64,000 nucleotides of DNA from Exophiala sp. HKRS030 (lineage: Eukaryota > Ascomycota > Eurotiomycetes > Chaetothyriales > Herpotrichiellaceae): assembly GCA_023897205.1 (NCBI GenBank), contig JAHWDD010000003.1, positions 3,227,665 to 3,291,664 on the forward strand. Reading direction: 5' to 3'. How positions within the stretch are numbered: the first letter of the stretch is position 1; each line of letters starts with the position of its first letter. The notes under the pieces are model-generated. The model was not told where the DNA came from, made no database searches, and saw only the letters and a list, made by a program, of their open reading frames with translations. Positions 20,535-64,000 of this stretch are shown piece by piece. The position numbers and the translations under genes were made by a program.

Positions 20535-20899
20535 CTTTAACTACTATCCTTAACGGAGTATCGATACGATATCTTCCTCTAAATAACTAGTACGATTACT
20601 ATTACCTACCGGATCGGTCCGATTCTATATACTAACCGCTATTACGAGATAACCTATAATTCGTTAGGTAGTAGATCGTAGTAAGGATATACCTAAGATC
20701 GAACCCTACTATAGGAATAGAGTAAAGCTAGGTATATTTATAGTATAACTAATTACTATATTTAGGTTAGATTCGACTCGCTATTAAATATACGCGAATA
20801 AAGTACTACTTATAGGAATTAATATAAGGGGCTTAGCTTTTTACTAGTTTAAATCTATTATAATAAACTACCTTATATATATAGAAGAGGAGCGTAACC

Positions 20900-23800
20900 T
20901 AGAAATACGGGATATCTTTAACGACTTCTTAATATTTATAGAAAGGATTAAGTAGATTTTTAAAACCCTAGGAGAGGAGTAATCTATAGCCTAGCGAATT
21001 TATTAAATTAAATAAACTTAATCTACGGCCTAATATTACGTACTATTTAAAAGATTATAGAATAAGCTCGACTAAAATAATAATACTTACGCTATAGCCT
21101 ACTATATAGGGCTAAAAGAGTTAATTAAGCGAGAACTAGGACCTAATAGACTAATAATATATAAAGAATTAGTAGATAAGTCTATTAAGATCGATAACTA
21201 GCTATACGAGAGGAGGTTAGAAAGTAAAGGGTACTAAGGAAAAATATTAAATAGATTCTTTAAGAAAAATAGTTACTAATAATCCTATAGTAACCCTATA
21301 GACCTTAATAATATAGAATATAGTAAATCCTTTAAGGATAAGAAATATAACTTCTATAAGGGGCTATCTAATCGCGAGAAGAAATAAAGGAGAAAGGAAA
21401 AACTATACTATAATTATAGAAATCCCGAATATCGAGTAAGAGAATATAGTATAAAGGCTTAAGGACTATATATAATAGAATAATTAACGGGTATCGAAGA
21501 AAAAAAGGCCGATACTTTAATAAAGAAAGAACTCTCTAGCCCTTAGAGTAATAGGAAAGCTAGCTAAGGAGAGAAAGTATAGAAGGAGTTAGGTAAGACT
21601 CCGAGTAACTAGGAGGACGCTTACGACCCCGTACTATAGGGGATAATAAAAGAAGAATATACTTATAGACTACTTTTATAGACCGCGTATTATAACGACG
21701 ACTACTATATATACTATAGTAAAAAGGACGGCTCGGAGTAGTTCCCGTAGTAACTAAAGAAGCGACGAAATAAGAAACGAGGCTTAAAGGGAAAGATCTA
21801 GGCCCTAGATTTAGACTCGGAATCTAGTACCGAATATGCGCTTAATAACGTCCTAGTTATAAAAGTAAAAGAAGTACCGTATATAGATAAATACTATATT
21901 ATATACTATATAGGGGATACTACGATAATATAAATAAAATACTAGGTCGAGGTTCTAGGAAGAGAGTTAGGGAAGAGGGAGTACGAAGATAATTATATAC
22001 TCTTTAACTCCTACGGGGAAGAATAAAGTAGAGTAAGGATAGTTATAATAGTAAGATACTAGGAGTACGAGGACCTACTACTATATATATACGATATAGA
22101 GGGAGAAGATAGTACCGAAGCGCTATTCCTAAAAAAGGGATATATAATCTTAGAAGTACGAAATACTTATATAAGGGTAATAACGCGCTTCTAGAAATAA
22201 ACCTATTATTAGATCCCGTATTTCTACTTACGGACGTATAACGAATATAACCCTAGATAAGGATAATACTAGTAGAAGGAACGAGAAGTAACCTTCTAGA
22301 GATATTATAATTATCCTAAAGAACTACTATATACGTACCTAATAGATAGGAGCCGAATAGAGATACCTATTATAGAAGGGAACTCTATAAGCGAAGAAGA
22401 AATCAAGGTATACTACCGTATATATAAAGAGACTAATAACGCGTTATATATTTAGACTTACTTCTATTAAGAGGATATAGATACTAAGGAGATATACTTT
22501 AACCTAACTATCGGTTTATAGCTAAACTATATCTATAGAATAATTAGACTCGATAAATATATAAAAGGTACCTACGAGAAGAGGGGCCTAAAGTATATAT
22601 ATAATATTATTAAATAAAGGATATACTACCTAGAGCCTATTAGTAATAAACTACTAACGAGGAAGGAGTTCGTTAGAGCGCTCGAATTTAATAACGATAA
22701 GGAATAGGATAAAGTCTAAGACCTTATACTAATAGAGTAATAAAGACTAATACCCTATAATAAGTAGATAAAAATAATTAAAGATAAGGAAGATTCGAAT
22801 AAAGAGGTTAAGTTCGTTATTAATAAAGTATTACGAACTATAATCTCTATATAAACCTACTATTAGAATTACGAACTTTATACGAGAAGCGACTACCTAG
22901 GAATATAGTACTTATATCTTATATTTAACTCTAGAACGATACGAAAGATAGTTAAAATACTAGTTAGAATACTTTTCTATAAGAACGATAATTATAACTA
23001 TACGAACTATATTTACTTATATAAAGGACCTCTAAATAGTTTCCCTATTAAAATACCGAATTTAATTACTCTTATAGTTTTCGGGAAAACTAGTCTAATA
23101 ACGAGAGATATACTAAAAAACGACTAGGAGTAGCCCTTATTAGGTAAAGGCTTACTCGACGAAAGAAAAAAGTATAAAATAGCCTATTAGTAATAGATAT
23201 AATATAACTAAGATTACTAGTCTTTAAGACTAATATCGGCGGTAAGAAGGCTAACGCTATAATAGACTTAGGAGCTAATTAGAACTATATATTACTATAT
23301 ATAGCGAAATAATTTAAAGAATATTAACGGAATAAGGAAGATCTATACTAACTTAATATAGCTAACGGGAAACCGATAAAATATAACGATAAATAAATAT
23401 AAAAAGAGATACGATAAATACCTATAGAAATAGGAGAGTACTAGGAAAAGATTATACTAGATATCTCGCTAATTAAGTTTAACCTTATTCTAGAAATAAA
23501 GTAGTTAAGAGAATATAACCTAAAAATTAATTAGAAATAACGTAGTATTACCTTTCTAAATTATAGTTATAGAAAAGGGAGTAGAGAAACGGAGTAGATA
23601 TACGGGATTTAGGTCCGCCCTTAGCGTACTACTATTACTTATATAGAATAGACGGTTCTACTAGAATATAAGGACTTTACTAATCTCTTTATAAAGAAAG
23701 AGGATAAAGCGGCGCTACTAGAATATAAACTATAGGACTATAAGATTATACTTATACTAGAACTAGAGCTAAATTACTTAGGCTACTTACTTAGGTTCTT

Positions 23801-26440
23801 AAAGGCGAAGGAGGACTACCTATAAGATTATATATAAAAGTATCTAAAGAAGAGTTTTATTAGACTATCGAAATCTAATACCGCTTATAGAGTAGTATTC
23901 GCGAAAAAGAAAAGTAGAGAGCTTCGAGTATATATTAACTTTAGACTATTAAACTTTAGGATAATTAAGAATTAATATCCTCTACCGTATATTAACGAAC
24001 TATAGGATAAATTATTAGATATAAGGTACTTTACGGTACTTAATATACGAGATATCTACTATCGAGTATAAATAAAGCTAGGCTACGAGAAATATACGGC
24101 CTTTAAGATATAATTCGGACTATTCGAGTATTTAGTTATACCTTTCGGATTAACTAATACTCTAGTAACTTTTTAGGAACTTATTAATAATACGATTCGA
24201 GAATATTTAAACGACTTTATAATAGCGTATCTCGACGATATACTAATATTCTCGAAGATATATAAAGAGTACGTTTAGTACGTACGTAAAGTATTAGCGA
24301 AACTTAAAGAGAAGGAACTTCCTCTAAAACTTAGTAAATATAAGTTTTATTAATAATAAATTAAGTTCCTTAGCTATATTATTTCTAATAATAGAATTAA
24401 AATAGATTCCGATAAAATAAAACTAATATAGGAGTAGCTAGAGCCGGAGACTATTATAGAGATATAAGCCTTTATAGGACTTATAAACTATATTCGTAAA
24501 TTTATTAAGGATTTCTCTAAGATAGTAGCACTACTTACTAACCTTATAAAGAAAGAGAATCGTAAAGGGTAACGAATAAGATTTATAGACGAGTATAGAG
24601 AAGCGTTTAAGAAATTAAAATTAGCTATAACGACTACGCCGGTACTCGCGATATACGACCTAGAGCTACCCGTAGAGATAGAAATAGATATATCGGATAG
24701 CGCTATCGGGGCTCGCCTTACGTAGAAATACCCTAACGGTAGAACTAGAACGATAGTATACTACTCTAGGAAAATAACTCTACTAGAACTAAATTATAAT
24801 ATCTACGATAAGGAATTACTTATAGTAGTCGAGGTACTTAAAGAATAGAGAGTTTACTTCGAGGGTATAAAATACTAAGTATAGGTATATATAGACTATA
24901 AGAACCTTCTTTACTAGATAATAACGAAATAACTTAATAGAAGATAGGTACGATAGGCTAAAATACTAGTACTATATAACTTTAAGATATACTACGTACG
25001 AGGAAAAGAGAATATAGTCGTAGACGCATTAAGTTAAAGAATAGACTATATAAAAGATATATAACCTAAGCTAGTAGTGATACTAAGGGTTAATAATAAC
25101 GAGTTCTTATCCTATATTAAACTATAAATATAATACCTTATAACGATAGACGTCGAACTAACTTAAGAATAAAAATAAGAAGTTATTAGGATAAGGTATA
25201 ATAATAAAATAGCTAGATACCCGGGAATAGAAAAGACTATCGAGTTAGTTACGAGAGATTTTACCTAAAAAGGACTTAGGAAGGACGTAACGGAGTACGT
25301 TAGGAATTACGATATATACTATAAGATAAAATATATAAGATATAAGCTATATAGATTACTATAGATACCTATAATACTAGAAGAGGTATAGTATATAATA
25401 GTACTAGATTTTATCGTTAAACTACTAAAATCTAAGGAACCTATAATAGGAGTAACTTACGATAGTATCCTAGTTATTAACGATATCCTTACTAAGTACG
25501 CCTACTTTATACTATATAAGGAGGCGTTAATAGTAGAGGACTTAGTATATACGCTATATAAGAATATAATATTAAATTACGGAGTACTAAGAAAGATACG
25601 CTCGAATTAAGATAAGCTATTTATATTATAGTTTTAGTAGTTACTAATAGATCTAATAGGTATATATTAGAAGCTATTAATAGTATATTACCCGTAGTTA
25701 GATAGATAGATAGAAAGAACGAATTAGATACTAGAATAGTATCTTAGAGTATATATTAACTAAGAATAGAATAATTAGGTATAACTACTACTAGTAGCCT
25801 AGTTCGTATTTAATAATAGTATAGCTACTATAGGAATATTACTATTCTATACGAACTATAATATATACTTAAATATTAATAGATAAGAAAGAGAATTAAA
25901 ACCTATAGTAGAAAAAGTAAAAATAATAATTAATAGAATTAAGGAACTATATAAGAAACTATTAGAAAGAATAATAGAAATAGTAAAGAAAATAATAAAA
26001 ATAGCGAATAAAAGAAGGTCTAAAGGACTAGACTTTAAAGAGAGAGAGGTAGTATACCTATTTAGAAAAAATATAAAAATAAAGAGGCCTAGTAATAAAC
26101 TCGATTATACTAAATTAGGGTTATATAAAATTAAGAAAAAGAAAGAACTAGTAATATTTAAACTAGAACTACTAAAAATAATAAGAGTTTATAGTATTTT
26201 CTATAAATTACTATTAGAAAGAGCTCCTAAGAATACTAGACTAGAACTAGTAGAAATTAACGAAGAAATATAAGAACTAAGATATAAGATTAAAGAGGTC
26301 CTAGACTACTAACCTATTAACGATAAAAAGTACTATCTAGTTAAATAGTTAAGATATAATTATTCGGAAAATATATAGGAACTAGAAGAATACCTTACCC
26401 GTAAGATAATTTAGGAATACTATTTAAAATCTTATTCTAG
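20900..26440 (+). pseudogene. Gag-pol remnant of chromovirus copy 1
   Basis: Not translatable: TGG and CAR codons have become TAG/TAA throughout, and Cys codons TGY read as Tyr TAY. Landmarks still visible are: a CCHC zinc knuckle with Cys positions now Tyr at about 21405-21455; a protease-like AIIDLGAN at about 23255-23280; RT YLDD at 24228-24239, followed by ILIFSK; an RNase H core EIEIDISDSAIGARL at about 24676-24720; integrase near 25405-25560 (DFIVKLLKSKEPIIGVTYDS); and a chromodomain at about 26281-26392 ending ..YNYSEN.. with W-to-stop changes. The order is standard for Ty3/gypsy with a C-terminal chromodomain, which in intact elements steers integration to heterochromatin. Confidence 0.88.
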
Positions 26441-27010
26441 TTAACGAGGTCTATTATTACTATACTATTATAAATAAACTTAGGATTAGTAAAAGCTATA
26501 GAGAAGGAAGGCTCGATAGCGTTAAGAATACCGAGCGCTTATATTTTATACTATAGTATATAGTCGGAGCGGCTATTTAACTCGGTAATACTATCCGCTA
26601 AGGAAGAGTCTTCTTTCTCCGTAGACGCTAGAGCTAGTTACGCCTCCGCGAGGGCGCGACGGAGCCGTTAAACCTCTTTCTATTTTCGCCTAGACTTTTC
26701 CTAGAACTCTTTTTTCTAGTCGGCTACTTTTCGGAATTCTTCTAATAAGAAAGTTTCGTTATAAGACCGCTAATACCGTAGATATTTAGTATATTTTATA
26801 GATTACTCCCTATTATAATAATATACTACCCTATAATTTATATATTTAATATAAGCTACTATAGCTATATTTTTAGGGCGAGAAATCGAGGTTATAAGCT
26901 CGTCGCGACGTTTCTTTTAAGATTTAAGGGATTTAGAAGACTTTCAATACCTAGCGATAGCGGCGAATATAGTTAGCTATAGGTAGAAAGAAGAGAAAAA
27001 CGAGAAGAAT
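26395..27010 (-). pseudogene. Decayed antisense coiled-coil gene in copy 1
   Basis: On the minus strand, downstream of and convergent with the polyprotein, a frame with only TAG/TAA stops at former CAG/CAA codons ends in ..TYR-GLY-stop (26395-26397). It contains FLLEEFRKVAD, KSRRK and Ala/Leu/Glu-rich heptads. The same frame and phrase occur in copy 2 with amino-acid replacements (VSD for VAD, KRK for KQK). Its stop lies inside the 3' end of the polyprotein frame, so the two genes overlap tail-to-tail. Start not determinable. Family not recognised. Confidence 0.6.
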
Positions 27011-27073
27011 AACTTACGGGGGAAGAGTAACTTTAAGTACGTCGAGGACGATATCTAGTTAGGGAGGGGCGAG

Positions 27074-27381
27074 TATTATAGGTCGACTAGATAGTAACCT
27101 ATACGAGGGGATCTTATTTTACTAATTAACCGCACTAGCTAGAGGAGGAAGGTAGCCCGACGACTTAATATAGATACTAGGGTACCGGATAAGGCTAGGG
27201 TATATAATAAGGCTTTAGCGATATAGCGATATACTAATATACTAGTATATTAATATATTAATATATTAAGCTAAGACGTATAATATTTACTACTATATAG
27301 TAGAGGTTATCCCTTAACGAGAAATAACCTATAGTTAACTTAATTTATTATCCTACCCCTATATTTTAGGATCTAGGATAG
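27074..27381 (+). repeat. 3' LTR of chromovirus copy 1, truncated
   Basis: Begins TATTATAGGTCGAC like the 5' LTR. It stops at ..ATCTAGGATAG, where the end of copy 2's LTR begins abruptly. The last ~120 bp are missing and do not reappear beyond copy 2. Confidence 0.85.
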
Positions 27382-27811
27382 TATTACGATTCGCTCCCGT
27401 AAGGTTATAAGTCGCTAAGGTTCTCCTTAGAAGAGGGTAGTATTATAGAGTAGTCTTAAGAAGTATATAGTATAAACGAGGTACTAATAGCAAACTATCC
27501 TAGATCCTAAAATATAGGGGTAGGATAATAAACTAAGTTAACTACGAATTATCCTTCTATGAGGGATAACTCTTACTATATAGTAGTAATATATTACTCC
27601 CTACGTAATCTCGGGTCGATATATTATTATACTAATATATCCTATATTAATATATTAATATATTAACCTAGCCCCGTTACGTAGCCTAGCCTCGTCTAGC
27701 GCCCTAGTATCTATACTAAGTTATTAGGCTACCTTCTTCCTTCGGCTAGTATAATTAATTAGTTAAATAAGATCCTTTCGTATCGGTTACCTTTATAACC
27801 GACCCGTAATA
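27382..27811 (-). repeat. 3' LTR of chromovirus copy 2
   Basis: Ends TATTACG..CGTAATA on the plus strand. Fully RIP-mutated across its length. Confidence 0.85.
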
Positions 27812-27889
27812 CTCGCCCCTCCCTAACTAGACGTTATTCTTAATATACTTTAAGGTTATACTCTCCGTAGGTCGACCCTCTATCTTCTT

Positions 27890-28469
27890 CTTCTTCTTTT
27901 GCCTATAGCTAACTATATCTACTACCGTCGCTAGGTATCGAAAATCGTCTAAGTTCCTTAAGTCCTAAAAGGAGCGTCGCGATAAGCTTATAACCTTAAT
28001 CTCTCGTCCTAAAAATACCGCTATAGTAGCTTATACCGAATATATAAATTATAGAGTAGTATATTATTATAATAGGGAATAATCTATAAAATATACTAAA
28101 TATATACGATATTAGTAGTCCTATAATAGAACCTTCTTACTAGAAGAGTTCCGGAAAGTTAGCGACTAGAAGAAAGAATTATAGGAGAAGTCCCGACGGA
28201 AACGAAAAGAGATCGCTCGTCTTTATCGTTTACTAGCTAATTTAGAAGAGGAGAACGTCTAGGTATAAGAGTCTCTAGCTAAACTAGAGCGTTAATCTAA
28301 GAGTATACTCCGTCGCGAGATATAGGCGTTAGGTATTTTTAGCTCTTCCGGACCTTCCTCTTTCGTAGCTCTTACCGAGCTCGATTTCGTTTTTAATAAT
28401 ATAGTAGTAATAGACCTCGTCGACTAGGATAAGATTTTAAACGATATTCCCGAATTATCTTACGGGTAA
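27890..28469 (+). pseudogene. Decayed antisense coiled-coil gene in copy 2
   Basis: A long plus frame has only TAG/TAA stops, each fitting a former CAG/CAA, until a terminal TAA at 28467-28469. It reads basic N-terminal blocks (SSKFLKS, ERRDKLITLISRPKNTAIVA), then an Arg/Tyr-rich block and FLLEEFRKVSD. Next comes a predicted coiled coil (KKEL, KSRRKRKEIARLYRLLANLEEEN, ESLAKLER), and it ends ILNDIPELSYG. Matches the copy 1 frame at protein level. An accessory gene of the element, function unknown; the start is approximate. Confidence 0.65.
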
Positions 28470-31400
28470 GGTACTCCTCTAGTTCTTATATATTTTCCGA
28501 GTAATTATATCCTAACTATTTAATTAGATAATATTTTTTACTATTAATAGGTTAGTAGTCTAAAACCTTCTTAACCTTATATCTTAGCTCTTATATCTTC
28601 TCGTTAATCTCTATTAGGCCTAGTCTAGCGTTTTTAGGTACTTTTTCTAGTAACGACTTATAGAAAATACTATAAATTCTTATTATTTTTAGTAGTTCTA
28701 GTTTAAATATTACTAGTCCTTTCTTTTTCTTAATCTTATATAGTCCTAACTTAGTATAATTAAGTTTATCGCTAGGTCTCTTTATTTTTATATTTTTTCT
28801 AAGTAGGTATACTACCTCTCTCTCTTTAAAGTCTAGTTCCTTAAACCTTCTTTTATTTACTACTTTTATTATTTTTTCTAATATTTCTTTAATCCTTTCT
28901 AATAACTTCTTATATAATTCTTTAATCTTATTAATTATTATTTTTACTTTTTCCGCTATAGGTTTTAATTCTCTTTCTTCTCTACTAATATTCGAGTAGA
29001 TACTATAGTTAGCGTAAAATAGTAATATTCCTATAATAGCTATACTATTATTAAATATAAACTAGGCTACTAGTAATAGCTATACCTAGTTATCCTATTC
29101 TTAATTAATATATACCCTAAGGTATTATTCTAATATCTAATTCGTTCTCTCTATCTATCCGTCTAACTATAAATAGTATACTATTAATAACTTCTAATAT
29201 ATACCTATTAGGTCCATTAATAATTACTAAAACTATAATATAAATAACTTATTTCGGTCTAAGCGTATTTCCCTTAATATTCTATAATTTAATATTATAT
29301 TCTTATATAGCGTATATACTAGATCTTCTATTATTAATACTTCCTTATAGGGTATAAAGTAGGCGTATTTTATAAAAATATTATTAATAACTAGAATACT
29401 ATTATAAGCTACTTTTATTATAGGTTCCTTAAATTTTAGTAACTTAACGATAAAGTCTAAGGCTATTATATTCTACGCTTCTTTCGGTATCGTAGGTATC
29501 TATAATAGTCTATATAGCTTATACCTTATATATTTCGTTTTATAGTATATATTATAGTTCTTAATATACTCTATTATATCTTTTCTAAGTCCTTTCTAGG
29601 TAAAATCTCTTATAACTAGCTTAATAGTCTTTTCTATTCCTAGGTATCTAGCCGTTTTATTATTATACCTTATCCTAATAACTTCTCGCTTCTATTCTTA
29701 GGTTAGTTCGATATCTATTATTATAAGTTATTATACTTATAGTTTAATATAGGATAAGGATTCGTTATCGTTAACCCTTAGTATTACTACTAGTTCTAGT
29801 TATATATCTTTTATATAATCTATCCTTCGACTTAGTATATCTACGACTATATTTTCTTTTTCTCGTATATAGTATATCTTAAAGTTATATAGCGCTAGTA
29901 TTTCGGCCTACTATACCTATCTCCTATTAAGTTATTTTATTATTATCTAGTAGAGAAGGTTCTTATAGTTCGTATATACCTATACTTAGTATTTTATACC
30001 CTTAAGGTATACTCTCTACTCTCGGAGCGCCTTAACTACTATAAGTAGTTTCTTATCGTAGATATCGTAGTTTAATTCCGGCGGAGTTATCTTTCTAAAA
30101 TAGTATACTATCGTCCGAATTCTCCTATTAGGGTATTTCTACGTAAGGCGAGCCCTAATAGCGCCGTCTAATATATCTATTTCTACTTCTACGAGTAGTT
30201 CCGAATTATATATTACGAGTACTAGCGTAGTTATTATAGCTAATTTAAGTCTTCCGAACGCCTCTCTATATTTATCTATAAATCTTATTTAGTCTCCCTT
30301 ATAGTTCTCTTTTTTCGTAAGGTCGATAAGTAGTACCGCTATTTTAGAGAAGTCTTTAATGAATTTACGAATATAGTTCGCGAGTCCTATAAAGGCTTAT
30401 ATTTCTATAATAGTCTTTAGCTCTAGCTACTCTTATATTAGCTTTATTTTATCGGAATTTACCTTAACTCTATTACTAGAAATAATATATCCTAGGAACT
30501 TAATTTATTATTAATAAAACTTATATTTACTAAGCTTTAGAGGAAGTTCCTTTTCCTTTAGCTTTACTAATATCTTATATATATACTAAACGTACTCTTT
30601 ATATATCTTTAAGAATATTAGTATATTATTAAAATATACTATTATAAAGTCGTCTAGATATTCTTAAATTATATTATTAATAAGCTCCTAAAAAGTTACT
30701 AGAGTATTAGTTAATCTAAACGATATAACTAAATACTCGAATAGTCCGAATTATATCTTAAAGGCCGTATACTTCTTATAGCCTAGCTTTATTTATACTC
30801 GATAGTAGGCGTCCTATATATTAAGTACTATAAAGTACCTTATACCTAATAATTTATTCTATAGTTCGTTAATATATAGTAGAAGATATTAATTCTTAAT
30901 TATTCTAGAGTTTAATAGTCTAAAGTTAATATATACTCGAAGCTCTCTACTCTTCTTTTTCGTAAATACTACTCCGTAAGCCGTACTAGATTTTAATAGT
31001 CTAATAAAATTCTTTTTTAGATACTTCTATATATAATCCTATAGATAGTCCTCCTCTATCTTTAAGAACCTAAATAAGTAGCTCGAGTAATTCGGCTCTA
31101 GTCCTAGTATAAGTATAATCTCGTAATTCTATAGTTTATATTCTAGTAACGCCGCTTTACTCTCTTTCTCCGTAAAGAGATTAGTAAAGTCTTTATATTC
31201 TAGTAGAATCGTCTATTCTATATAGGTAATAGTAGTACGCTAAGAGCGGACCTAGACTCTATATATCTACTTTATCTCTCTACTTCCTTTTCTATAACTA
31301 TATTTTAAAAAGGTAATACTATATTACTTCTAATCGATTATTAGGTTATACTCTCTTAACTACTTTATTCCTAGAATAAGATTAAACTTAATTAGTAAAA

Positions 31401-33960
31401 TATCTAGTATAATCTTTTTCTAATATCCTCCTATTTCTATAGGTATTTATTATATCTCTTTTCGTATCTATCTATTATTATATTTTATCGGTTTTTCGTT
31501 AGCTATATTAAGTTAGTATAGATCTTCCTTATCTCGTTAGTATTCTTTAAATTATTTCGCTATATATAGCGATATATAGTTCTAATTAGCTTCTAAGTCT
31601 ATTATAGCGTTAGCCTTCTTACCGCCGATATTAGTCTTAAAGACTAGTAATCTTAGTTATATCGTATCTATTACTAATAGGCTATTTCGTACTTTTTTCT
31701 TTTGTCGAGTAGGCCTTTACCTAATAAGGGCTACTCCTAGTCGTTTTTTAGTATATCTCTCGTTATTAGACTAGTTTTCCCGAAAACTATAAAGGCGATT
31801 AAATCCGATATTTTAATAGGGAAACTATTTAGAGGTCCTTTATATAAGTAAATATAGTCCGTATAGTCGTAATTATTATTCTTATAGAAAAGTATTCTAA
31901 CTAGTATTTTAACTATCTTTCGTATCGTTCTAGGGTTAAATATAAGATATAAGTACTATATTCCTAGGTAGTCGCTTCTCGTATAAAGTTCGTAATTCTA
32001 ATAGTAGGTTTATATAGAGATTATAGTTTATAATACCTTATTAACGACGAACTTAATCTCTTCTTCTAGATCTTCCTTATCTTTAATTATCTTTACCTAT
32101 TTACTATAGGGTATTAGTTCTCGTTATTCTATTAGTATAAGATCTTAGACTTTATCCTATCCCTTATCGTTATTAAATTTAAGCGCTCTAATAAACTCCT
32201 TTCTCGTTAATAGTTCGTTACTAATAGGCTCTAGGTAGTATATCCTTTATTTAATTATATTATATATATACTTTAGGCCCCTTTCTTTATAGGTACCTCT
32301 TATATATTTATTAAGTCTAATTATTCTATAGATATAGTTTAGCTATAAACCGATAGTTAGGTTAAAGTATATCTCCTTAGTATTTATATTCTCTTAATAG
32401 AAGTAAGTCTAAATATATAACGCGTTATTAGTCTCTTTATATATTCGGTAGCGTACCTTAATTCCTTCTTCGTCTATAAAGTCTCTCTTTATAATAGGTA
32501 TCTCTATATAGCTTCTATCTATTAGATATATATATAGGAATTCCTCCGAATAGTTATAGTATCTCTAGAAGGTTATCTCTCTTTCCTTCTTCTAGTACTA
32601 TCCTTATCTTAGGTTATATTCGTAATACGTCCGTAAGTAGAAGTATAGAATTTAATAGTAGGTCTATTTCTAGAAGCGTATTATCGCTCTTATATATATA
32701 TTTCTCGCTTCTAAGATTTTATACCTCTTTTTTAAGAATAGTACCTCGGTATAGTCCTCGCCTTCTATATCGTATATATATAGTAGTAGATCCTTATACT
32801 CCTAGTATCTCGCTAGGGTAACTATTCTCGCTCTACTTTATTCTTCTCCGTAGGGGTTAAAGAGCGTATAGTTACCTTTATACTCCTCTTACTCTAGTTT
32901 CCGTCCTAGAACCTTAACCTAATATTTTATTTATATTATTATTATATTACCTATATAGTATACGATATAGTATTTATCTATATATAGTATCTCCTTTACT
33001 TCTATAACTAGGATATCGTTAAGTATATATTCCGTACTAGACTCCGAGTCTAAATCTAGAGCCTATATCTTTTTTAGGCCCCGTTTCTTATTTCGCCGCT
33101 TCCTTAATTATTATAGGAACTATCTTAAGCTATTCTTTTTACTATAGTATATATAATAGTTATCGTTATAGTATACGGTTTATAAAAGTAGTCTATAAGT
33201 ATATTCTTCTTTTATTATTCCCTATAGTACGAGGTTATAAGTATTCTCCTAGTTACTCTAAGTCCTTTCTAACCCCTTCTATACTTTCTCCCCTTAGCTA
33301 GCTTTCCTATCGTCCTAAGGGCTAGAGAGTTCTTTCTTTATTAAAGTATCGACCTTTTTCCCTTCGATACCCGCTATTTATTCTATTATATATAGTCCTT
33401 AAGCCTCTACGCTATATTCTCGAGCTTAGTATCCGGAATTTCTATATTTATAGTATAGGTCTTTCTTCTTCCTTCGTTTCTTCTTATAATTAGATAGTTC
33501 CTTAATATTAAAGTTACGCTATTTACCCTTAAAGGGTTTACTATATTCTATATTATTAAGGTCTATAGGATTACTATAGGCTTACTAGTAGTTAGATTTC
33601 TTAAAGAATCTACCTATCGTCTTTCCTTAGTATCCTTTACTTTCTAATTATCTCTCGTATAACTAGTTATTAATTTTAATAGATTTATTAACTAATTCTT
33701 TATATATTATCGGTCTATTAGGTCCTAGTTTCCGCTTAATTAATTCTTTTAACCCTATATAGTAGGCTATTATATAAGTATTATTATTCTAGTTAAGCTT
33801 ATTTTATAATCTTTTAAATAGCGTATAGTATTAAGCTACGGATTAGGTTTATTTAATTTAGTAAATCCGCTAGGCTACTAACTATTCCTTCCCTAGAGTA
33901 CTAAAAATTTATTTAATTCTATCTATAAATATTAAGAAGTTATTAAAGATTTCTCGTATC
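28440..33960 (-). pseudogene. Gag-pol remnant of chromovirus copy 2
   Basis: Same domain order as copy 1, read from 33960 leftward, with the chromodomain remnant near 28480-28600. RT lies around 30625-30655, where the catalytic Asp-Asp now reads Asn-Asn (YFNN), a direct consequence of G-to-A change. Stops are present throughout. More degraded at RT than copy 1. Confidence 0.85.
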
Positions 33961-34329
33961 TTTAAATTACGCTTCTCCTTCGCGTACGTAAGATAATCTA
34001 TTATAATAGGTTTAAACTAATAAAAGGCCGAACTTCTTATATTAATTCCCGCGAGTAGGACTTTATCTATATATATTTAGTAACGAGTCGAATCTAACCT
34101 AAATATAGTAATTAGTTATACTATAAATATACCTAGCTTTACTCTATTCCTATAGTAGGGTTCGATCTTAGGTATATCCTTACTACGATCTATTACCTAA
34201 CGAATTATAGGTTACCCTATAATAGCGGTTAGCGCGTAGGATTAAATCGATCTAGTAGGTAATAGTAATTATACTAGTTACTTAGAGAAAGATATTATAT
34301 TAATACTCCGTTAAGGAAGGTAGTTAAAG

Positions 34330-34759
34330 TATTACGATTCGCTCCCGTAAGGTTATAAGTCGCTAAGGTTCTCCTTAGAAGAGGGTAGTATTATAGAGTA
34401 GTCTTAAGAAGTATATAATATAAACGAGGTACTAATAGCGAACTATCCTAGATCCTAAAATATAGGGGTAGGATAATAAACTAAGTTAACTACGGATTAT
34501 CCTTCTACGAGGGATAACCCTTACTATATAGTAGTAATATATTACTTCCTACGTAATCTCGGGTCGATATATTATTATGCTAATATATCTTATATTAATA
34601 TATTAATATATTAACCTAGCCCCGTTACGTAGCCTAGCCTCGTCTAGCGCCCTAGCATCTATGCTAAGTTATCGGGCTACCTTCTTCCTTCGGCTGGTGT
34701 GGTTAATTAGTTAAATGAGATCCTTCCGTGTCGGTCACCTTTATAACCGACCCGTAACA
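34330..34759 (-). repeat. 5' LTR of chromovirus copy 2
   Basis: Same 430 bp as 27382-27811. The outermost ~120 bp (about 34640-34759) keep unmutated CA/TG (for example GGTGTGGTT, GTGTCGGTCACC, CGTAACA), while the inner part is saturated with TA. Confidence 0.85.
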
Positions 34760-35939
34760 CGACTCTTATCGACGTATATCTGATTTATACGAATATTATC
34801 TACTATTAGTATATATTATATTTACTCCTATCGATAGTCTACGAGGTCTACCGACCCGCCTATAATCACTATTATTTATCGTTATTTATCGTTATCTATC
34901 GCTAAAGTCCGTATTTTAGTTATCGCCTTAGTATTCGCGGCTACGAACTCCTTATTAATATTTTCTATCGATTATTAGCGATATCTACCTAATAGAATCG
35001 GCTACTTACGATAGTTAATAGAATACTTTATACCTCGCTACTAGAAGAGGTAACTACTATAAGCTATATTAATTAGTTACGAACTACTATAATAATTTAC
35101 TACCTACTATTATTAGCCTCGGAACTAATCGAAATATACTTAACGAATAGACTAGAATTTTAACTATATTAGCGGTAGGCTATCGATTATTAGCGATAAC
35201 TATTAAGGTCTAACTACTACTTACGAGGGATATTAGTTTTACCGAATTTATTTACTAAGTACCCTTTAATATAGGATAGACGAGCTATTACGATAGTTAG
35301 TAATAGTTAATAGGTAAAATTAGACGATACTTACTATTTAAGGTTTTATCGGATTAGCTCGGTTTAACTCGCTAGATTACCTCGACGCCGGACTTACTAT
35401 TATTAGTCGTAAGGATTCGCTTAGTTCGTCGACTATCGTAATAGATCGAGATTAGATAGAGAATATTATAAATACTCGTAGAGGTAGGAGGATTATCGGT
35501 ATTAGTCGATTTCTTAGGAGGATTATCGGTAACGGTCGTATCGGCTAGGGGATTATCGTTATTAATCGAGGAGGATATAGTAGAGGATTTACGAGATCTT
35601 ATAACCTTTAACGATAGTTATCTATCTTTTATAAGGAGAAGAATCTTTTAGTCTTTTAATAATCTATTTATAGATTCTAACGATAGTTAGTAATCGTAAG
35701 CTAGAAAAGTAGAAGCTAAAACCGTTAAGCTACGAGGGCTCGATACTTATAGATTAATAGAGTAATTTTCGGGGCAAAAAGTATTAAAGGGTTAATTTTC
35801 TATGTTTTAAACTAAGGTTCTTTGAGAAGGTTATAGTATTATTTAGGTCTATCGCGAACCGTCGTATTCCGCTAGTTTCTATCGGTAACTATCGGTATAA
35901 AAAACGGCTAGAGGACGTTTTATTTTAAGTAGAGAAGGA
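34760..35939 (+). other. 3' remnant of outer element
   Basis: RIP-mutated, with several internally repeated words such as GATTATTAGCGATA and GGAGGATTATCGGTA. No domain recognised on either strand. RIP becomes incomplete in the last ~150 bp before the right LTR. Confidence 0.5.
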
Positions 35940-36062
35940 TGTGGTATTAGCGCTAGACTAATATCTTGGCACGAACGGTAGCGATGGATTACAGATAAAA
36001 GCGGCCTCACTCCCTGATAGACTTAGTAGCTAGTCAATCCAATTTTTGCCGCTACAACCACA
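35940..36062 (+). repeat. Right LTR of outer element, 123 bp
   Basis: Direct repeat of the left LTR. Begins TGTGGT and ends ACCACA, and is preceded by a purine tract at about 35931-35939. Ends 277 bp before the GPI2 start codon. Confidence 0.9.
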
Positions 36063-36339: not shown

Positions 36340-38166
36340 ATGGCGCCGCCTCCTACATCTCCCACTACTTCAACCACGACGACTAATACGACCACTCCAA
36401 TTCCATCTCCTGCTCCCTCTCCCATCCCTCCACCGGTTCCTGTAGAGACACATCCCAATCGTGGGAAACCTCAAGCGGTAAGGCTACTTTCAGACCCTAG
36501 TCGTCTAGCCCCCGAAGATGCCTACAAGCCATTTTCTCCCCCTCGTCTGAGGCCTGTTCATGAAATCAATGGATCAGCGGCTGCCTCTTTGGCTGCTGCG
36601 GCTCTTCGGCCGGCCGTCGCATCACTAAGAGCACCTCCCGCCATTCCCCCTGTTGCCGCTAGGTTAGCCGAGGAGAAGAGGAGGGCAGCTAGCAGAAGAA
36701 GAAAGCAACCACACGTGTGGAAGAAGTTACTTTGGATCAAACAACATGGGTTTCCAGACAACTATACCGATACCGAGACATTCCTGGATCATCTCCAGAG
36801 GAATCCAAGACTGAGGCCGTATGACTTTTGGTCCCTCGTCGCAGATTCAGCTGTCATTGTTCAACATGTCTGCTCCGTGGCCATCTACATCTGCGCTTAC
36901 GCGGGAATCTATCAGGATAGATTGTCTCCGGTTGCGGTAGTGACATGTGGCACTGTTGCGACCATCGTCGGTTGGATATTGTGGGATCGTTGGATTGGGC
37001 AGGAGGAGATGGAAGAGTCGGCAATCAAGATCAAAAGCAAGCGACAATCACTCGATGTGGACGATCGTTCAAGCACCAGCTCAGGTGACTTGACCAAGCC
37101 CACCCTCAACGGTAATGGTCACTTGAATGGTTATGCGAATGGTGATTTGAATGGGTATTCGAATGGGGCCATGAGCGGACGTGGAGTTGGTCTGAGACTT
37201 TCCACCACCAACCTTGCTGTCAAAGAGCATGAGCACAAGCTTGCCAGTAAGCATACACAATCACTCTCTAAATCCTCATTCCAGTCAATATCTCCTATCG
37301 ATGCGTTGAGCGAAAACGCTACAGATTCTTTTGCCAACCTCGGAGCATCTGTGTCTTTACCGCAACCACCTCAATCACCTGTTAGCGTCCACTCCCGCAG
37401 CAATCTATCTCACCGCTCGCAAGCGCGGCGGAAGACGTTGAAATCAGCGTCGCTCATCTACTTTGCCTTGCTCGGCTTATCTCCAATCCTCAAATCACTA
37501 ACCAAGTCAACATCATCTGATTCTATCTGGGCTCTCGCGACATGGCTTCTGATCATCAACATCTTCTTCTTCGACTATGGCAGTCTGTACGTACCCACCA
37601 AATCTCATTTGGAGCCAACATCACCTGGAGCATCGACTGCACTCTCATCGAATACGTCCGCGGCCCCTTTCCCTAACTCCCTTCGAGCTGCACCGTTCCC
37701 ATCATCATTGTCAACCAATGCGGCGTTGATGGCAAGTACCGTGTTGGCATCACGACTCCTGACAACGACTGCAGTGTTTAGCTTATCATTGTTTTCTATC
37801 CAAGTGTTTGGACTCTTTCCGGTCTTTCGACGGCACCTCAGGCACAAATCTTTCAACTCGCATCTACTTCTTACGGCGGGCTTGGTGGTCATGTCAACCG
37901 CGGGACTTGGACTCATTTTGTCTCAATCTTACACACATACATATGGAGATTGCGGATTCTGCTTAGGCTGGATATGGCATGTAATATTAAGAAGCACAAT
38001 AGGACTGTCGGTGGGTGGATTCAGCACAGCATTTGTAATGGGCGGATGTTCGTGGTGGTTGATTGGATTACAGCGATACAAGAATGTGGTTATAGGTCCT
38101 TGGGATCCTGCTAAACCTGTTCTGGCCGGTGGTGTGTATGGAAGAAGTAGAACAGGGACAGATTGA
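36340..38166 (+). CDS. GPI2: GPI2 / PIG-C, GPI-GlcNAc transferase subunit
   Basis: 608 residues, no intron. Family blocks are: VWKKLLWIKQHGFPDNYTD (about residues 127-144), LQRNPRLRPYDFW, VADSAVIVQHVCSV, WILWDRW, LIYFALLGLSPILKSLTKSTSSDSIWALATW, NIFFFDYG, NAALMASTVLASRL and FGLFPVFRRHLRHKS. Several hydrophobic segments are spread along it. The protein is a membrane subunit of the GPI-N-acetylglucosaminyltransferase that transfers GlcNAc from UDP-GlcNAc to phosphatidylinositol at the ER, the first step of GPI-anchor synthesis. It is much longer than yeast Gpi2 because of a Pro/Ala-rich N-terminus, a hydrophilic insert after WDRW containing repeated Asn-Gly phrases (about residues 225-360), and a Ser/Pro loop after FFFDYG. 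The promoter is squeezed between the retroelement and the ATG. Confidence 0.95.
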   Translation: MAPPPTSPTTSTTTTNTTTPIPSPAPSPIPPPVPVETHPNRGKPQAVRLLSDPSRLAPEDAYKPFSPPRLRPVHEINGSAAASLAAAALRPAVASLRAPPAIPPVAARLAEEKRRAASRRRKQPHVWKKLLWIKQHGFPDNYTDTETFLDHLQRNPRLRPYDFWSLVADSAVIVQHVCSVAIYICAYAGIYQDRLSPVAVVTCGTVATIVGWILWDRWIGQEEMEESAIKIKSKRQSLDVDDRSSTSSGDLTKPTLNGNGHLNGYANGDLNGYSNGAMSGRGVGLRLSTTNLAVKEHEHKLASKHTQSLSKSSFQSISPIDALSENATDSFANLGASVSLPQPPQSPVSVHSRSNLSHRSQARRKTLKSASLIYFALLGLSPILKSLTKSTSSDSIWALATWLLIINIFFFDYGSLYVPTKSHLEPTSPGASTALSSNTSAAPFPNSLRAAPFPSSLSTNAALMASTVLASRLLTTTAVFSLSLFSIQVFGLFPVFRRHLRHKSFNSHLLLTAGLVVMSTAGLGLILSQSYTHTYGDCGFCLGWIWHVILRSTIGLSVGGFSTAFVMGGCSWWLIGLQRYKNVVIGPWDPAKPVLAGGVYGRSRTGTD

Positions 38167-39036
38167 GGTTCGGGCTCGGGAGGTGTTACTCCGTCCCTAC
38201 CCATTGTCGTCCGATCACGGCAAAGAGTCTTGTATGACCAAACTTTGAAGCTATGGATATGTTCTCCAGAGTTGTGTGGCACGTTCCGATTTCCGCGGCT
38301 CTCGAAAGAACATGCTTTCATCTCGGAAAGTAGAGGGCCTGAATCGGCGAAGGGACCGAGAAACTGAGTGCACAGTTGAGTTAGTGCTAAATACCACAGA
38401 ATGTTCATTGGCTAAGACTGCAAAAGCATATCCACTTTTTTCTCGAAAATGATGCCGACAAGCAACTCGAGAAGGAGGGGTCGGGATGAGGACGGATACG
38501 GTAGGCAGCCTGGAATGTGAGACTTTGGGATATGAACGAGGGATGCACGGAGGTGGAAGTGGAATGGGCGATGAAATTGAGATTTGAAAGTGGGGGGGGT
38601 GGAAGGTGGAAGTGAGGAGAGAAGAACGAGCACCAAAGGAAGGCACGCATTTGCACTCGTGGCACCACTGTACGGAAGGTGCGAAGGTGCGTTCGTCCTC
38701 TTTCGTCTCCTGCCCTCTTGCCTATTGCGGGGTTTCCGTCCCTCACCCTCAACTTCTCCGCATCAACACCGAGGGACATGGTGAGATACGCATTTTATAT
38801 TGTGAACATTGATACCAAAAAAGCTGTGGCGTCGTCATTTCTCTCTGGCACTCATAGTTCTCCGGTCCCGCCTGATCTTTGATCAATCATACATCATTTC
38901 TTGCTGTGCAAAATCTTCCTTCTACATCCTTTCGTCCTGGTTGTCACGCTCTCGTCCATCTCAATTACCTTCCCGAACTACTGTCCTATTCATTCAACAC
39001 TCCACCCCTTCCAATATCTTGCCACGCCTTACGGAC
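38167..39036. other. Intergenic and 5' leader of the dehydrogenase
   Basis: No gene. The frame upstream of 39037 is open to 38809 but encodes no conserved residues, so I treat it as leader sequence. A mitochondrial presequence from that extension is possible but not favoured. Confidence 0.5.
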
Positions 39037-40671
39037 ATGTCTAAACCACAGCTGCCCTTCGAACTCCAAGACCCAGACTTGTTCCATCAAGATTCGTACC
39101 TTGACGGACAATGGGTTCAATCCAAGTCTGGCAAACGATTCGATATCATTGACCCCGGATCCGATAAAACGTGGGCGTCATGTCCAGACAATGCAGTCGA
39201 AGATGTTGACGCCGCCGTGCAATCCTCATATAAGGCTTTCAAGGAATATTCAATTGTCAATCCACGCAAGAGAGCCCAACTACTCATGAAATGGCACGAA
39301 CTCATCACAGCCGCTCGAGACGACCTCGCCAAGATTCTGACCTACGAGACAGGAAAGCCTTTGGCCGAAGCGTACGGAGAAATTGACTATTCTCTCGGTT
39401 TTACATGGTGGTTTGCAGGTGAAGCAGAACGAATTCAAGGATCTGTTTCTGTGCCCAGTGCGCCCAATAGACGCACCTTTGTCATCAAACAACCCATTGG
39501 AGTTGCTGTCGCTCTTGTACCATGGAATTTCCCCATCGCCATGATCCTTCGTAAGGCAGGGGCGGCATTCGCTGCAGGTTGCACTATGATTGTCAAACCC
39601 AGTCCAGAGACCCCGCTGACTTGTTTGTCCTTGGCCCACCTTGCCACAAAAGCCGGGTTTGCCCCTGGTGTCTTCAACGTGCTCACCACGTCCCTCCAAA
39701 ACACCCCATCACTTTCGGAAGCTCTGATTCTGCACCCTTTGACCAAGAAAGTCACATTCACCGGCTCAACCCGTGTTGGTAAACTCGTGGCTGGTCTATG
39801 CTCCAAGAACCTCAAGAAATGTACCTTGGAGCTTGGAGGGAACTGCCCCTTCATTATTTTCGACGATGCCAACCTCGAGCAGGCATTGGCGCAATTCATG
39901 GCGTTGAAGTGGCGTCATGCAGGTCAAGCGTGTATCTCGGCAAACCGGCTCTATGTTCAGAGCGGCGTGTACGAGAAGTTCACTCAGATGCTAGTCGAGA
40001 AGACCAAAGCTTTAAAAGTCGGCCATGGTGCGGCAGATGGGACCACTATGGGCCCTGTGACGACTCCAAGAGGTCTTGCTAAGGCGGAAGAACAGGCGGC
40101 TGATGCCGTCAAATTGGGTGCCAAACTCGTTTTGGGAACTGGTAAGGCTTACAAGAATTCGAAAGAGGAAGAAGGCAGTGGTCTTGGAAAGGGTGTTGGT
40201 GGTTATTTCATGGACCCGACCATCCTCACTGATATGTCGGAAAAGATGTTGCTATCCCGAGAAGAGACATTTGCACCAGTTTGTGGAATTTTCAAGTTTG
40301 AAAAGGAAGAAGAAGCTGTCAGGTGGGCCAATGATACTAGTATGGGATTGGCGAGTTATGCTTTCACCAAGAATGTCGATCGTGTATGGAGAATGTTGGA
40401 GAACTTGGAGGCCGGTATGATCGGATTGGTAAGTTTTTTGTTCTTCTTGTGTCAACGTTTGCCTGAATCCAGAATCGCCGACACTGTCTTGATGATGTTG
40501 GTGATCGAAGCTAACAAGCACCAATAGAACACAGGCAATGCGTCGGCAGCAGAATCGCCTTTTGGTGGCATCAAAGAAAGCGGATACGGCAAGGAATCCG
40601 GCAAAGACGTCGCCGTCAATGAATATCTGATCGCCAAAACCGGTACATTCACCATTGAAGGTCAATATTGA
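39037..40671 (+). CDS. Aldehyde dehydrogenase, succinate-semialdehyde type
   Basis: Exon 1 is 39037-40428, the intron 40429-40527 (GTAAGT..GCTAACA..AATAG) and exon 2 40528-40671; together they encode 511 residues. The start is MSKPQLPFEL. Motifs: PWNFPIAM (about 162-169) and KPSPETP for NAD(P) binding, FTGSTRVGK, the general base Glu265 in LELGG, the catalytic Cys299 in GQACISANR, EETFAPV, and SPFGGIKESGYGKE at the C-terminus. The block order matches ALDH5-type enzymes, which oxidise succinic semialdehyde to succinate in the GABA shunt. WWFAGEAERIQG also fits this group. The upstream frame is open, so an N-terminal extension cannot be excluded. SSADH is likely; a related aldehyde substrate is possible. 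Confidence 0.92.
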
Positions 40672-61470: not shown

Positions 61471-63500
61471 TCTTTTACAGCAATCTCGTGCTTGACTACG
61501 AATAAACAACATCTCAAGGTGTACATTGACGGTCCCGAATGATCCACATGGCAGAACCAAAGAATTTGGTTAACTGGAAAATGAGTTGTTGTACTGTCGA
61601 AAGAATTTATACCTAGCAAGCCTGGATTGCACCTATAAGACAAGCCCCACGACCCCCCGTAACAATGCCAAGTAAAGAGGTCGCCATTTTGGCCATGGGA
61701 GACATCGGTGCCTCCTTTTGCCTTCAATGACCCACTAAAGCTTCATATCTGAGAGGAGAAGCTCGTTCATCAGACCACTTTCGGCATTACTAGGTCAATA
61801 ATTCAAGTGCTTGGAACTATGAGAAGCAAATTCTTCGATCTGATATCCTGTTGAGTGTTTACACACCGATATACAGACTTACCGTAAGTATACTAACAAG
61901 GGCACTACTTCATGAGTCTCTGATGCTAACCTCAAGAATTAAAACTAAGACTTCACAGGTGCTCAGATACTAAGTACGAAAGTGTTTTTCAATAGAACTA
62001 CAAGTATTACAGGATTCTGGACCACCAGATATCTGGGAGCTACACGATCTTGACCCTGAAGTCATTCTGACTGATGTCTGCTGAAACACGCCACGACATA
62101 GGGCATCCTTCTTACGAGGTTATAAGTCAGAAGAACAGTTCAACCACTAAGTACTAAGTAGTAATACTCATAATAAGCATTGGCTGCCATGTCTCCCTGT
62201 GTCTGTAAAAGAGGACAGCCAAAATCCGAAATTCCTATAGAGATATAAAGTACTAGTAGTTCATCAACAATACTCACAGCCCAAAGCTCTACTGCTCATA
62301 CTAAATATTCTTTTCGCTAAAGTAAACTCATGGAGGCGTTCGGCCTATTCGTAGACTCTACAGTATACTATCGACGCTCAAGAGGACCAGGCACGGCGCT
62401 AGTTCTTTTTCGGCATCCACAATGGCGCATTTGATGTTCCCAGCTCTGCGCCACTCCCGTTAAATTCTTTAATGCTTTCCCCTAGAATCATTTATTCTAT
62501 ATATACTGCGGCTCTAGGAACAACATTACTATGATATACTTAGTACTCATAGAGATATTAAAGTCCTGAAAAATCTGATAGCCAGTAGTAAGTACCAAGT
62601 ATATAATAATGATAACCCGGTCAATACCGCGTAGTCTCTATCTATATAGGAGCTGTATATATCAAGAATACTAGTAGTGAATAACTATCTCTGTTCAGGT
62701 GGCTAGTAACCAGCCTTAATAAGTAAAGACTACAAAAGCTTGATAAGACCTCTTGCAGTTGGCTAATGACTGTTCTAACAGGATCTTTAGACTTAGTATC
62801 AAGGTCAATCAATACTCAGTCTATACTAGTACAGTAACAAAATCTATGAAGCCTAATGGGTCTATATCTACATTATGTTCGAAGTAGCTATAAGTAATCT
62901 CTTTCCTGATATCTAACCTAGCCCAGGCGTTAGCAGCGGAGTCACAATTCATACAGATTCTTCGTAGTGGCATGCATTAAGTACCTGACAGTCTTCGAAA
63001 GGACTACCGGCAATTGTCCTTGAGCATAGGAACAACTTCTAGTTCTCTGTGAAGAAGTACTTACTAAGTACAAGTCGCGCGCCGCCCGAGGACGATTTCT
63101 TTGCAGAAGCAGCCCTGCCTCTCCGGGAAGTGAACGAGACGTATTTTCCTAAGCGGTCCTAAGTCCTCGATAACGCTAGAAAATGTCTCCTGTAGATAGA
63201 TAATAATGACAGCACACTCGCTCAGATAAGACCAGTCGAGGTATTAAGCGCTGCTTTAATATTAAGGCCCGTATACGAAGTACTTAGATTTCAGAAGCAT
63301 ACAGGAAACAAAAAAGGGACTGCCAGTATACATAATTATGGAAACGCTAAGTAAGGATTCATACAAACGGAAAAACTGATGGAGTGACGGTATGTTGTAG
63401 TATGTTGTGCATTGACCTAGGTCGAGTAACTTTCTTCTCTAGTTGACGCATTACTTTCCCAAGTTCAAACATACACCATACCACAGCAAATATATCAAAA
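61471..63500. other. Gene-free, TACTTAG/CTAAGTA-rich stretch
   Basis: No gene recognised. The words CTAAGTA and TACTTAG/AGTACTTA recur (for example about 61969, 62147, 62153, 62539, 63062, 63281), and AT content is higher than in the genic part. It may be a decayed repeat, but no ends or coding remnants were found. Confidence 0.4.
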
Positions 63501-63502
63501 TC

Positions 63503-63513
63503 AAAAAAGAAAA
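63503..63513 (-). terminator. Pol III terminator of tRNA-Arg
   Basis: TTTTCTTTTTT on the transcribed strand, beginning 14 nt after the tRNA 3' end. Confidence 0.85.
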
Positions 63514-63537
63514 GAGCATCATCATGCATCCCAGGTG

Positions 63538-63548
63538 GGACTCGAACC
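63538..63548 (-). promoter_or_regulatory. Pol III B box
   Basis: GGTTCGAGTCC, a full match to GGTTCGANTCC, in exon 2. The insert lengthens the A-B spacing within the tolerated range. Confidence 0.9.
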
Positions 63549-63553
63549 CACAA

Positions 63554-63607
63554 CTATTGACACAGTTAGTCTCAAAGGCAGCGCGTGTAATGGAGGATAT
63601 TGCTTAC
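63554..63607 (-). other. 54 bp spliceosomal-type intron inside tRNA-Arg
   Basis: Starts GTAAGC (fungal 5' splice consensus), contains ACTAACTG (CTAAC branch motif at 63565-63569, about 12 nt from the 3' end) and ends CAATAG. Its length is typical of this genome's mRNA introns. It lies between tRNA bases AGG and TT of the variable loop, at an AGG|T proto-splice-like site. It does not sit where the tRNA splicing endonuclease normally cuts. Confidence 0.8.
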
Positions 63608-63634
63608 CCTCCAGATTAGAAGTCTGGCGCGCTA

Positions 63635-63645
63635 CCATTGCGCCA
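63635..63645 (-). promoter_or_regulatory. Pol III A box
   Basis: TGGCGCAATGG, close to the TGGCNNAGTGG consensus, in exon 1 of the tRNA. Confidence 0.85.
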
Positions 63646-63652
63646 CTGAGAC

Positions 63653-64000
63653 AAACTCTCCGACGTACAAAGATGCAGTCGACGAGAATGTGGCGTCAAG
63701 TTAAGCTAAAATTGGCTGGCAAAAAATATGAAATAAAATTTTCTGGTCACGTGTGGTGCCTCTGTTTCCGGTATGTAGGCCACTTGCCAAGCCCCAACGT
63801 CAAGCTGTCTCGCAGTTGTCTCAATATATACAACTTCATATCTCTCTTCCTTGGAGACTTCTACCGTTCGCAAGCCTTGAACGTGGACCTGTTTGTACGA
63901 TCACATTGTCCTTCCATGAGCTGGAATGTCTTTAGTGCCAACGCCTATCTACTCAAGGCCAATTCCTCTGGCCAAATGTGTCATCACGATTGCGTTTGTC
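63653..64000. other. tRNA 5' flank, no gene seen
   Basis: Short open frames only. Includes one TAGGCCACTTGCC word resembling the satellite anchor. Confidence 0.4.

Follow-up and report, generated by a model that had tools for sequence, protein, structure and literature searches.

Candidate spliceosomal introns interrupting the variable loop in the two tRNA-Arg(UCU) genes detected in Exophiala sp. HKRS030

Within the 64-kb stretch of DNA from Exophiala sp. HKRS030 that was analysed as a whole and is called the window, cmscan gave a single Rfam match, a tRNA on the minus strand from 63652 to 63527. It is a tRNA-Arg(UCU) gene (63527..63652, minus strand; RF00005, 58.6 bits over the whole model, 1-71), and it is interrupted in its variable loop. 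The 5' exon of 45 nt (63608..63652, minus strand) holds the 5' strand of the acceptor stem, the D arm, the anticodon arm and AGG of the variable loop. The 3' exon of 27 nt (63527..63553, minus strand) supplies the remaining TT, the T arm, the 3' strand of the acceptor stem and the discriminator G. When the spliced exons were used as query against the genome, bases 1-45, which make up the 5' exon, were matched with 100% identity. The anticodon TCT lies at 63618..63620 (minus strand). With G-U pairs counted, 7/7 pairs are formed in the acceptor stem, 4/4 in the D stem, 5/5 in the anticodon stem and 5/5 in the T stem, and the cmscan alignment to RF00005 places the insert between the anticodon arm and the T arm. 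The original prediction of four paired stems, an uninterrupted anticodon arm and 54 inserted nucleotides separating AGG from TT is thereby borne out.

The gene also carries what we take to be the two internal Pol III promoter elements, assigned from the sequence according to their consensus motifs. These are an A box TGGCGCAATGG at 63635..63645 and a B box GGTTCGAGTCC at 63538..63548 (both minus strand), the latter also found by a pattern match together with a T run downstream. The T-run terminator TTTTCTTTTTT is located at 63503..63513 (minus strand).

The intron of 54 nt (63554..63607, minus strand) lies between bases 3 and 4 of the five-base variable loop, that is, at 46/47 in our own numbering. 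By sequence, it starts with the 5' splice site GTAAGC (63602..63607), contains the branch site ACTAAC (63565..63570, with the predicted branch A at 63566) and ends with the 3' splice site TAG (63554..63556), all on the minus strand. There are 11 nt from the ACTAAC hexamer to the end of the insert and 12 after the branch A; in a second gene described below, which has ACTAAT at the corresponding place, the distance is 13 nt. The start, the end and the branch motif were thus read correctly beforehand. The claim that exact removal of the insert leaves a standard five-base loop also held, with the break after base 3 and with the empty site AGGTT present in tRNA-Arg(CCU).

ARAGORN missed the window tRNA gene in its bacterial mode. 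In its intron mode, it proposed a 39-nt intron in the anticodon loop, which leads to a mismatched stem and a tRNA of 88 nt. This candidate was rejected because in the second gene an intact anticodon stem flanks a separate small intron at 37/38.

The second tRNA-Arg(UCU) gene (C3:1653175-1653312, minus strand) is situated approx. 1.6 Mb from the window gene, which lies on the same contig C3 of the 59.8-Mb genome (50 contigs). It was not part of the earlier note, which was made from the sequence alone, and neither were the pairing between exon and intron and the doubled genome described further below. Its insert of 58 nt (GTAAGA...ACTAAT...TTTAG) occupies the identical position in the variable loop, and the gene additionally has an ordinary 8-nt intron at 37/38. 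The acceptor stems, GTCTCAG/CTGGGAT in the window gene and GCTCTGC/GCAGAGT in the second one, differ in six of the seven pairs, five of which are changed on both sides; still, each pairs 7/7. Both genes therefore look like working genes, given that their acceptor stems have diverged and remain fully paired. As expected of functional genes from their sequence, both show a cloverleaf after removal of the insert, A and B boxes and T runs.

Between the two inserts, GTAAG, ACTAAY and TAG are kept, and much of the remaining intron sequence has diverged. The intron cores could be aligned weakly better than shuffled sequences (19/1000). A comparison of approx. 3 kb around each UCU gene gave one significant alignment (E 9e-15), namely, the tRNA itself.

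Uninterrupted copies were sought in the genome with several patterns. A 5'-half pattern (≤3 mismatches) resulted in five matches, two of them with a UCU anticodon, and these are the two interrupted genes. The closed-loop pattern GGAGGTTGTGGGTTCGAGTCCC (≤3 mismatches) matched three times in the genome and never a UCU gene: the matches are two tRNA-Arg(CCU) genes and one tRNA-Gly(UCC). The empty site AGGTT (AAGGTTGTGGG) occurs in both of the tRNA-Arg(CCU) genes. With a loose UCU pattern, 35 matches were obtained (44 with the control), and the 13 examined comprised the two UCU genes and eleven non-tRNAs. The original prediction had considered that intact intron-less UCU genes might exist elsewhere in the genome, which would point to a dead copy in the window. 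None was present among the pattern matches examined, and 2/2 UCU genes found carry the intron. As no UCU gene with a closed loop was found in this assembly with the patterns used, AGA decoding appears to rest on the two interrupted genes; the assembly consists of 50 contigs, and the genome may be incomplete. The codon is in use: five long open reading frames of the window, taken without screening for introns, contain 2953 codons, of which 187 specify arginine and 40 are AGA. The exon pattern gave no match in prokaryote contigs and IMG/VR, two sets that fungal relatives lie outside of.

Concerning other tRNAs, a pattern for the 3' part of such introns (CTAA...AG...GGTTCRANNCC) had 34 matches (36 with the control). 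A variable-loop intron was noticed only in the two UCU genes, the surroundings of a minority of matches having been examined; several of the 34 resemble tRNAs that have either a 37/38 intron or a long variable arm. In the tRNA family search, 63 of 1707 first-look candidates were scored and yielded 42 tRNAs, a number that is a lower bound. Six of them are intronless, two are the UCU genes, one is a tRNA-Cys identified by eye and 33 were given an anticodon-loop intron by ARAGORN, several of these names and lengths looking wrong and a few tRNAs having been inspected by eye. Ordinary introns at 37/38 are common among the tRNAs of this genome. Two tRNA-Arg(ACG) genes share the same body, and one of them is uninterrupted and the other has a 16-nt intron at 37/38 (L001 and L026; ARAGORN named L026 as Ala).

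The splice signals were compared with those arising in shuffled inserts. The strict set of GTAAG, CTAAY (6-18 nt after it) and AG was not reached in any of 1,000,000 letter shuffles of the window insert, and likewise in 0/1,000,000 for the insert of the second gene. A loose set (GT[AG][AT]G, YTRAY and AG) was reached by 22/1,000,000 and 8/1,000,000 shuffles for the window and second gene, respectively; in these shuffles, the ends of the insert were kept fixed, and the figures are uncorrected for a handful of registers and for the choice among many sequences. Chance is nevertheless a poor account of the signals, because the insert of the second gene, which was discovered later, shows the same ones. 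Judged by sequence, the inserts have the GT...AG ends of a U2-type intron and CTRAY at the usual distance, and these signals are kept in a diverged homologue. Among the U1 matches, the one with the highest score starts with ATACTTACCT, which fits GTAAG; it scored 59.7 bits against an Rfam cut-off of 69.5, and all four U1 matches of the genome were under this cut-off. A scan of the window for introns that join open reading frames gave nine candidate mRNA introns above the cut-off of that scan, four with GTAAGA and three with [AG]CTAAC.

Introns of this type are also found in other small RNAs of this genome. One of the two U6 snRNA genes (C5:2143871-2144024, minus strand) has an mRNA-type insert, GAGAAG|GTTCGT...AACTAAC...CAG|ATTAGC, and the other (L078) is uninterrupted. 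Both U3 snoRNA matches contain a spliceosomal-type intron near the 5' end, namely, GTGAGT...AACTAAC...CAG in the one at C16:81252-81554 and GTTAGA...GCTAAC...TAG in the one at C7:3196073-3196342, which is below the Rfam cut-off. Small structured RNAs thus seem, from their sequences, to host spliceosomal-type introns already in this genome; a tRNA would be a new kind of target.

Both UCU introns hold a stretch of 9-11 nt that is complementary to a segment of the D arm, GGTAGCGCG (63628..63636, minus strand, in the window gene). The complement in the window gene, termed the anti-D-arm element, is CGCGCTGCC (63577..63585, minus strand), which is predicted to pair with this segment with one G-U pair; in the second gene, it is CGCGTTACCAT. 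At the two positions that differ between CGCGCTGCC and CGCGTTACCAT, the pair with the D arm is kept by means of G-U. Shuffled introns were as complementary to the D-arm segment in 12/5000 cases for the window gene, a figure that refers to a segment chosen post hoc, and in 1/5000 for the second gene. Against the whole 5' exon, which is the fairer test, the values were 110/5000 and 1/5000. In the predicted fold, there is a further intron segment, CCTCCA (63591..63596, minus strand), that is the complement of TGGAGG just upstream of the 5' splice site.

The predicted precursor folds were better than folds with an enforced cloverleaf by 9.5 kcal/mol for the window gene and 10.0 kcal/mol for the second gene, and the same advantage was reached with 6/300 and 1/300 shuffled introns, respectively. 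For both genes, 0/4 pairs of the D stem and 7/7 pairs of the acceptor stem are present in these folds. The anticodon stem is predicted with 0/5 pairs in the window gene and 4/5 in the second gene, and the T stem with 5/5 and 0/5, respectively. After joining of the exons, the cloverleaf has -26.0 kcal/mol in the window gene and -30.1 kcal/mol in the second gene; the unconstrained folds have -30.2 and -34.5 kcal/mol and retain the arms in altered form along with extra pairs. According to this model, the intron would hold the precursor out of the cloverleaf, and export, endonuclease cutting and modification would wait for splicing. In each predicted precursor fold, the 5' splice site has 3/6 of its bases in pairs, and this could hinder or slow U1.

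Both predicted folds contain a hairpin of the branch site with the 3' exon, two motifs that are partly complementary by nature. The sequence TGAGAC in the window intron, which adjoins the branch site, is complementary to GTCTCA in the 5' strand of the gene's own acceptor stem; nothing corresponding to it exists in the second gene, and the predicted fold makes no use of it.

The neighbourhoods of the two UCU genes point to a doubled genome. The PIG-C protein encoded in the window is 87% identical to a protein of Exophiala mesophila, and its best named matches are from Chaetothyriales black yeasts. A partner of this gene, with 77% identity in the genome search and 76% by BLASTP, lies 9 kb away from the second tRNA gene (C3:1642456-1644282). 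It is followed by a partner of the window open reading frame 38809-40527, which reads like an aldehyde dehydrogenase. The pair of PIG-C and the aldehyde-dehydrogenase-like gene thus occurs twice in the same order on contig C3, at 36340-40527 of the window and within C3:1642400-1652000. In a PIG-C tree of 12 rows, which represents one gene and leaves three deeper forks open, the window copy grouped with E. mesophila (100/96) and its partner with E. xenobiotica (100/99). Also paired in this genome are U6, U3, tRNA-Arg(CCU), Sen2 and Sen34. Regarding the latter two, four loci with the catalytic domain of the tRNA endonuclease were found, their names being our reading of PF01974 matches. The two Sen2-like copies are 73% identical over 249 columns, and one of them appears to change frame; the two Sen34-like copies are 57% identical over 331 columns.

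From these sequences, the genome appears to have arisen by hybridisation between two Herpotrichiellaceae lineages or by another doubling of equal depth; a mixed assembly may be an alternative source of the paired genes. On the hybrid reading, the one tRNA-Arg(UCU) gene of each lineage has the intron, and the intron therefore likely predates the split of the lineages. If it is as old as this, it is expected in further members of the Herpotrichiellaceae.

In the accepted view, a protein endonuclease and a ligase take the introns out of nuclear tRNAs, and spliceosomal introns have their place in mRNAs and, among fungi, also in U6 and U3. Given the fact that 2/2 UCU genes found are interrupted, that their exons show compensatory changes and that U6 and U3 introns exist in the same genome, we consider with good confidence that the variable-loop inserts in both UCU genes found are mRNA-type introns that are most likely removed by the spliceosome. 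In the proposed course of events, Pol III would make the tRNA-Arg(UCU) precursor, whose intron would pair with the D arm and thereby leave the precursor folded without one. The U1, U2 and U6 snRNPs would then excise the variable-loop intron as a lariat in the nucleus. The joined exons could subsequently adopt the cloverleaf, which would make export possible, and in the second gene the tRNA endonuclease would cut the ordinary 37/38 intron after the spliceosomal step. Translation of AGA codons would in this way depend on the spliceosome.

Cutting by the endonuclease itself, here Sen2/Sen34, is another conceivable route: the inserts would be ectopic tRNA introns, and their resemblance to mRNA introns would be incidental. 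The available parts of the literature on ectopic tRNA introns (PMC3978253, PMC4090602) report them from red algae, nucleomorphs and archaea and treat them as a matter of the bulge-helix-bulge (BHB) motif and the endonuclease. Those of Cyanidioschyzon merolae and of nucleomorphs resemble the UCU introns as eukaryotic tRNA introns beyond 37/38; C. merolae introns have BHB motifs, and many of those in Guillardia lack a defined BHB, which lends this route some support (available parts of PMC3978253 and PMC4090602). Splice-site and branch-site signals are present in the UCU introns and, in contrast, are not mentioned for the C. merolae and nucleomorph ones in the available parts of these sources (PMC3978253, PMC4090602). 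The two Sen2-like and two Sen34-like loci and the frequent 37/38 introns show that this genome is equipped for such cutting; however, doubled Sen genes are expected from a doubled genome. No BHB was found in seven registers per precursor, with at most 3/4 central pairs and then 0/3 inner pairs. This weighs little, because the same scan also fails on the ordinary intron of 8 nt at 37/38 in the second gene (2/4 central and 0/3 inner pairs). The position of the insert in the variable loop, outside 37/38, is a stronger point: the eukaryotic tRNA endonuclease is held to measure the distance from the mature domain up to the anticodon loop, which does not take it to the variable loop. Moreover, GTAAG, CTAAY and AG are kept in both UCU genes, and we know of no role for them in endonuclease cutting. 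Removal by the endonuclease is thus regarded as very unlikely.

An even smaller probability is given to the possibility that both UCU genes are dead or that the insert is retained, with AGA being read by another tRNA or by an unassembled UCU gene. The 50-contig assembly, the share of tRNA candidates scored (63/1707) and that of loose-pattern matches examined (13/35) leave some room for it. The five acceptor pairs changed on both sides, the promoter boxes and T runs and the conserved splice signals in both genes speak against decay, as do the use of AGA and the fact that the patterns gave no third UCU gene. It is least probable, with hardly any weight, that the insert stems from a recent insertion, be it of a mobile or introner-like element or of the tRNA 5' half in inverted form, and carries its splice signals by accident. 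The window intron does complement TGGAGG, GGTAGCGCG and GTCTCA of its own 5' exon in this order, as an inverted copy would, but the third of these complementary stretches is without counterpart in the second gene. In a repeat search of window 63400-63800, in which G-U pairs were uncounted, neither an inverted repeat nor a repeat of the insert was detected. The diverged inserts at the same site and the homeologous-looking neighbourhoods argue for an old insertion instead.

Returning to the spliceosomal reading, its close parallels include mRNA-type introns in fungal U6 snRNA genes, reportedly described by Tani and Ohshima in 1989 and by Canzler et al. in 2016. They are alike in that a spliceosomal-type intron lies within a small structured Pol III RNA. 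U6, however, is part of the spliceosome and thereby exposed to reverse splicing, whereas a tRNA is not, and 1/2 U6 genes is interrupted here compared with 2/2 UCU genes found. Bhattacharya et al. are said to have found spliceosomal introns in ascomycete rRNA genes, which are similarly of the mRNA type in a structured RNA that owes its synthesis to a polymerase other than Pol II, but those genes are transcribed by Pol I, exist in many copies and include no tRNA. A variable-loop intron in a tRNA of the archaeon Thermofilum pendens was reportedly described by Kjems et al. in 1989. Archaeal tRNA introns are BHB-spliced by the endonuclease; the T. pendens intron shares the position of the UCU introns and differs from them in being archaeal and BHB-spliced, while the UCU genes were found without a BHB. 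According to the available part of a paper from 2017 (PMC5832005), no small structured RNAs other than U3 and U6 were so far known to have frequent intron interruptions. Like the UCU introns, the fungal U3 introns treated in that part (PMC5832005) combine canonical splice signals with a structured noncoding host RNA, U3 itself being a snoRNA. By analogy, the UCU intron presumably functions in the manner of the mRNA-type introns in U6 and U3. Its position sets it apart from ordinary tRNA introns, and according to the BHB scan it is not of the archaeal type either. A literature search covering titles and abstract openings, with few subscription journals, listed no spliceosomal intron in a nuclear tRNA gene among its matches.

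It is likely, as far as can be judged from the genes, that this cell needs the spliceosome for its AGA-reading tRNA, although intron removal in other tRNAs is the work of a separate cutting enzyme. Spliceosomal introns are already known from structured noncoding RNAs; the consequence would be categorically new if RNA work confirms it. The broadest form of this proposal extends to the whole black-yeast family, in which the sole AGA tRNA would have an ancient spliceosomal intron, the anti-D element would block the cloverleaf, export and the endonuclease until splicing, and AGA decoding would be tied to the spliceosome; we see the chances for and against it as evenly balanced. If true, a tRNA joins two splicing systems, and the decoding of one codon hinges on the spliceosome. 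It would also mean that an essential RNA outside the spliceosome can acquire an intron of the spliceosomal kind and keep it.

Apart from the genes described, the window contains a 16-kb block (20001-36000) with approx. 28-31% G+C, compared to approx. 46-50% in its flanks, presumably of the kind that is left by repeat-induced mutation in fungi.
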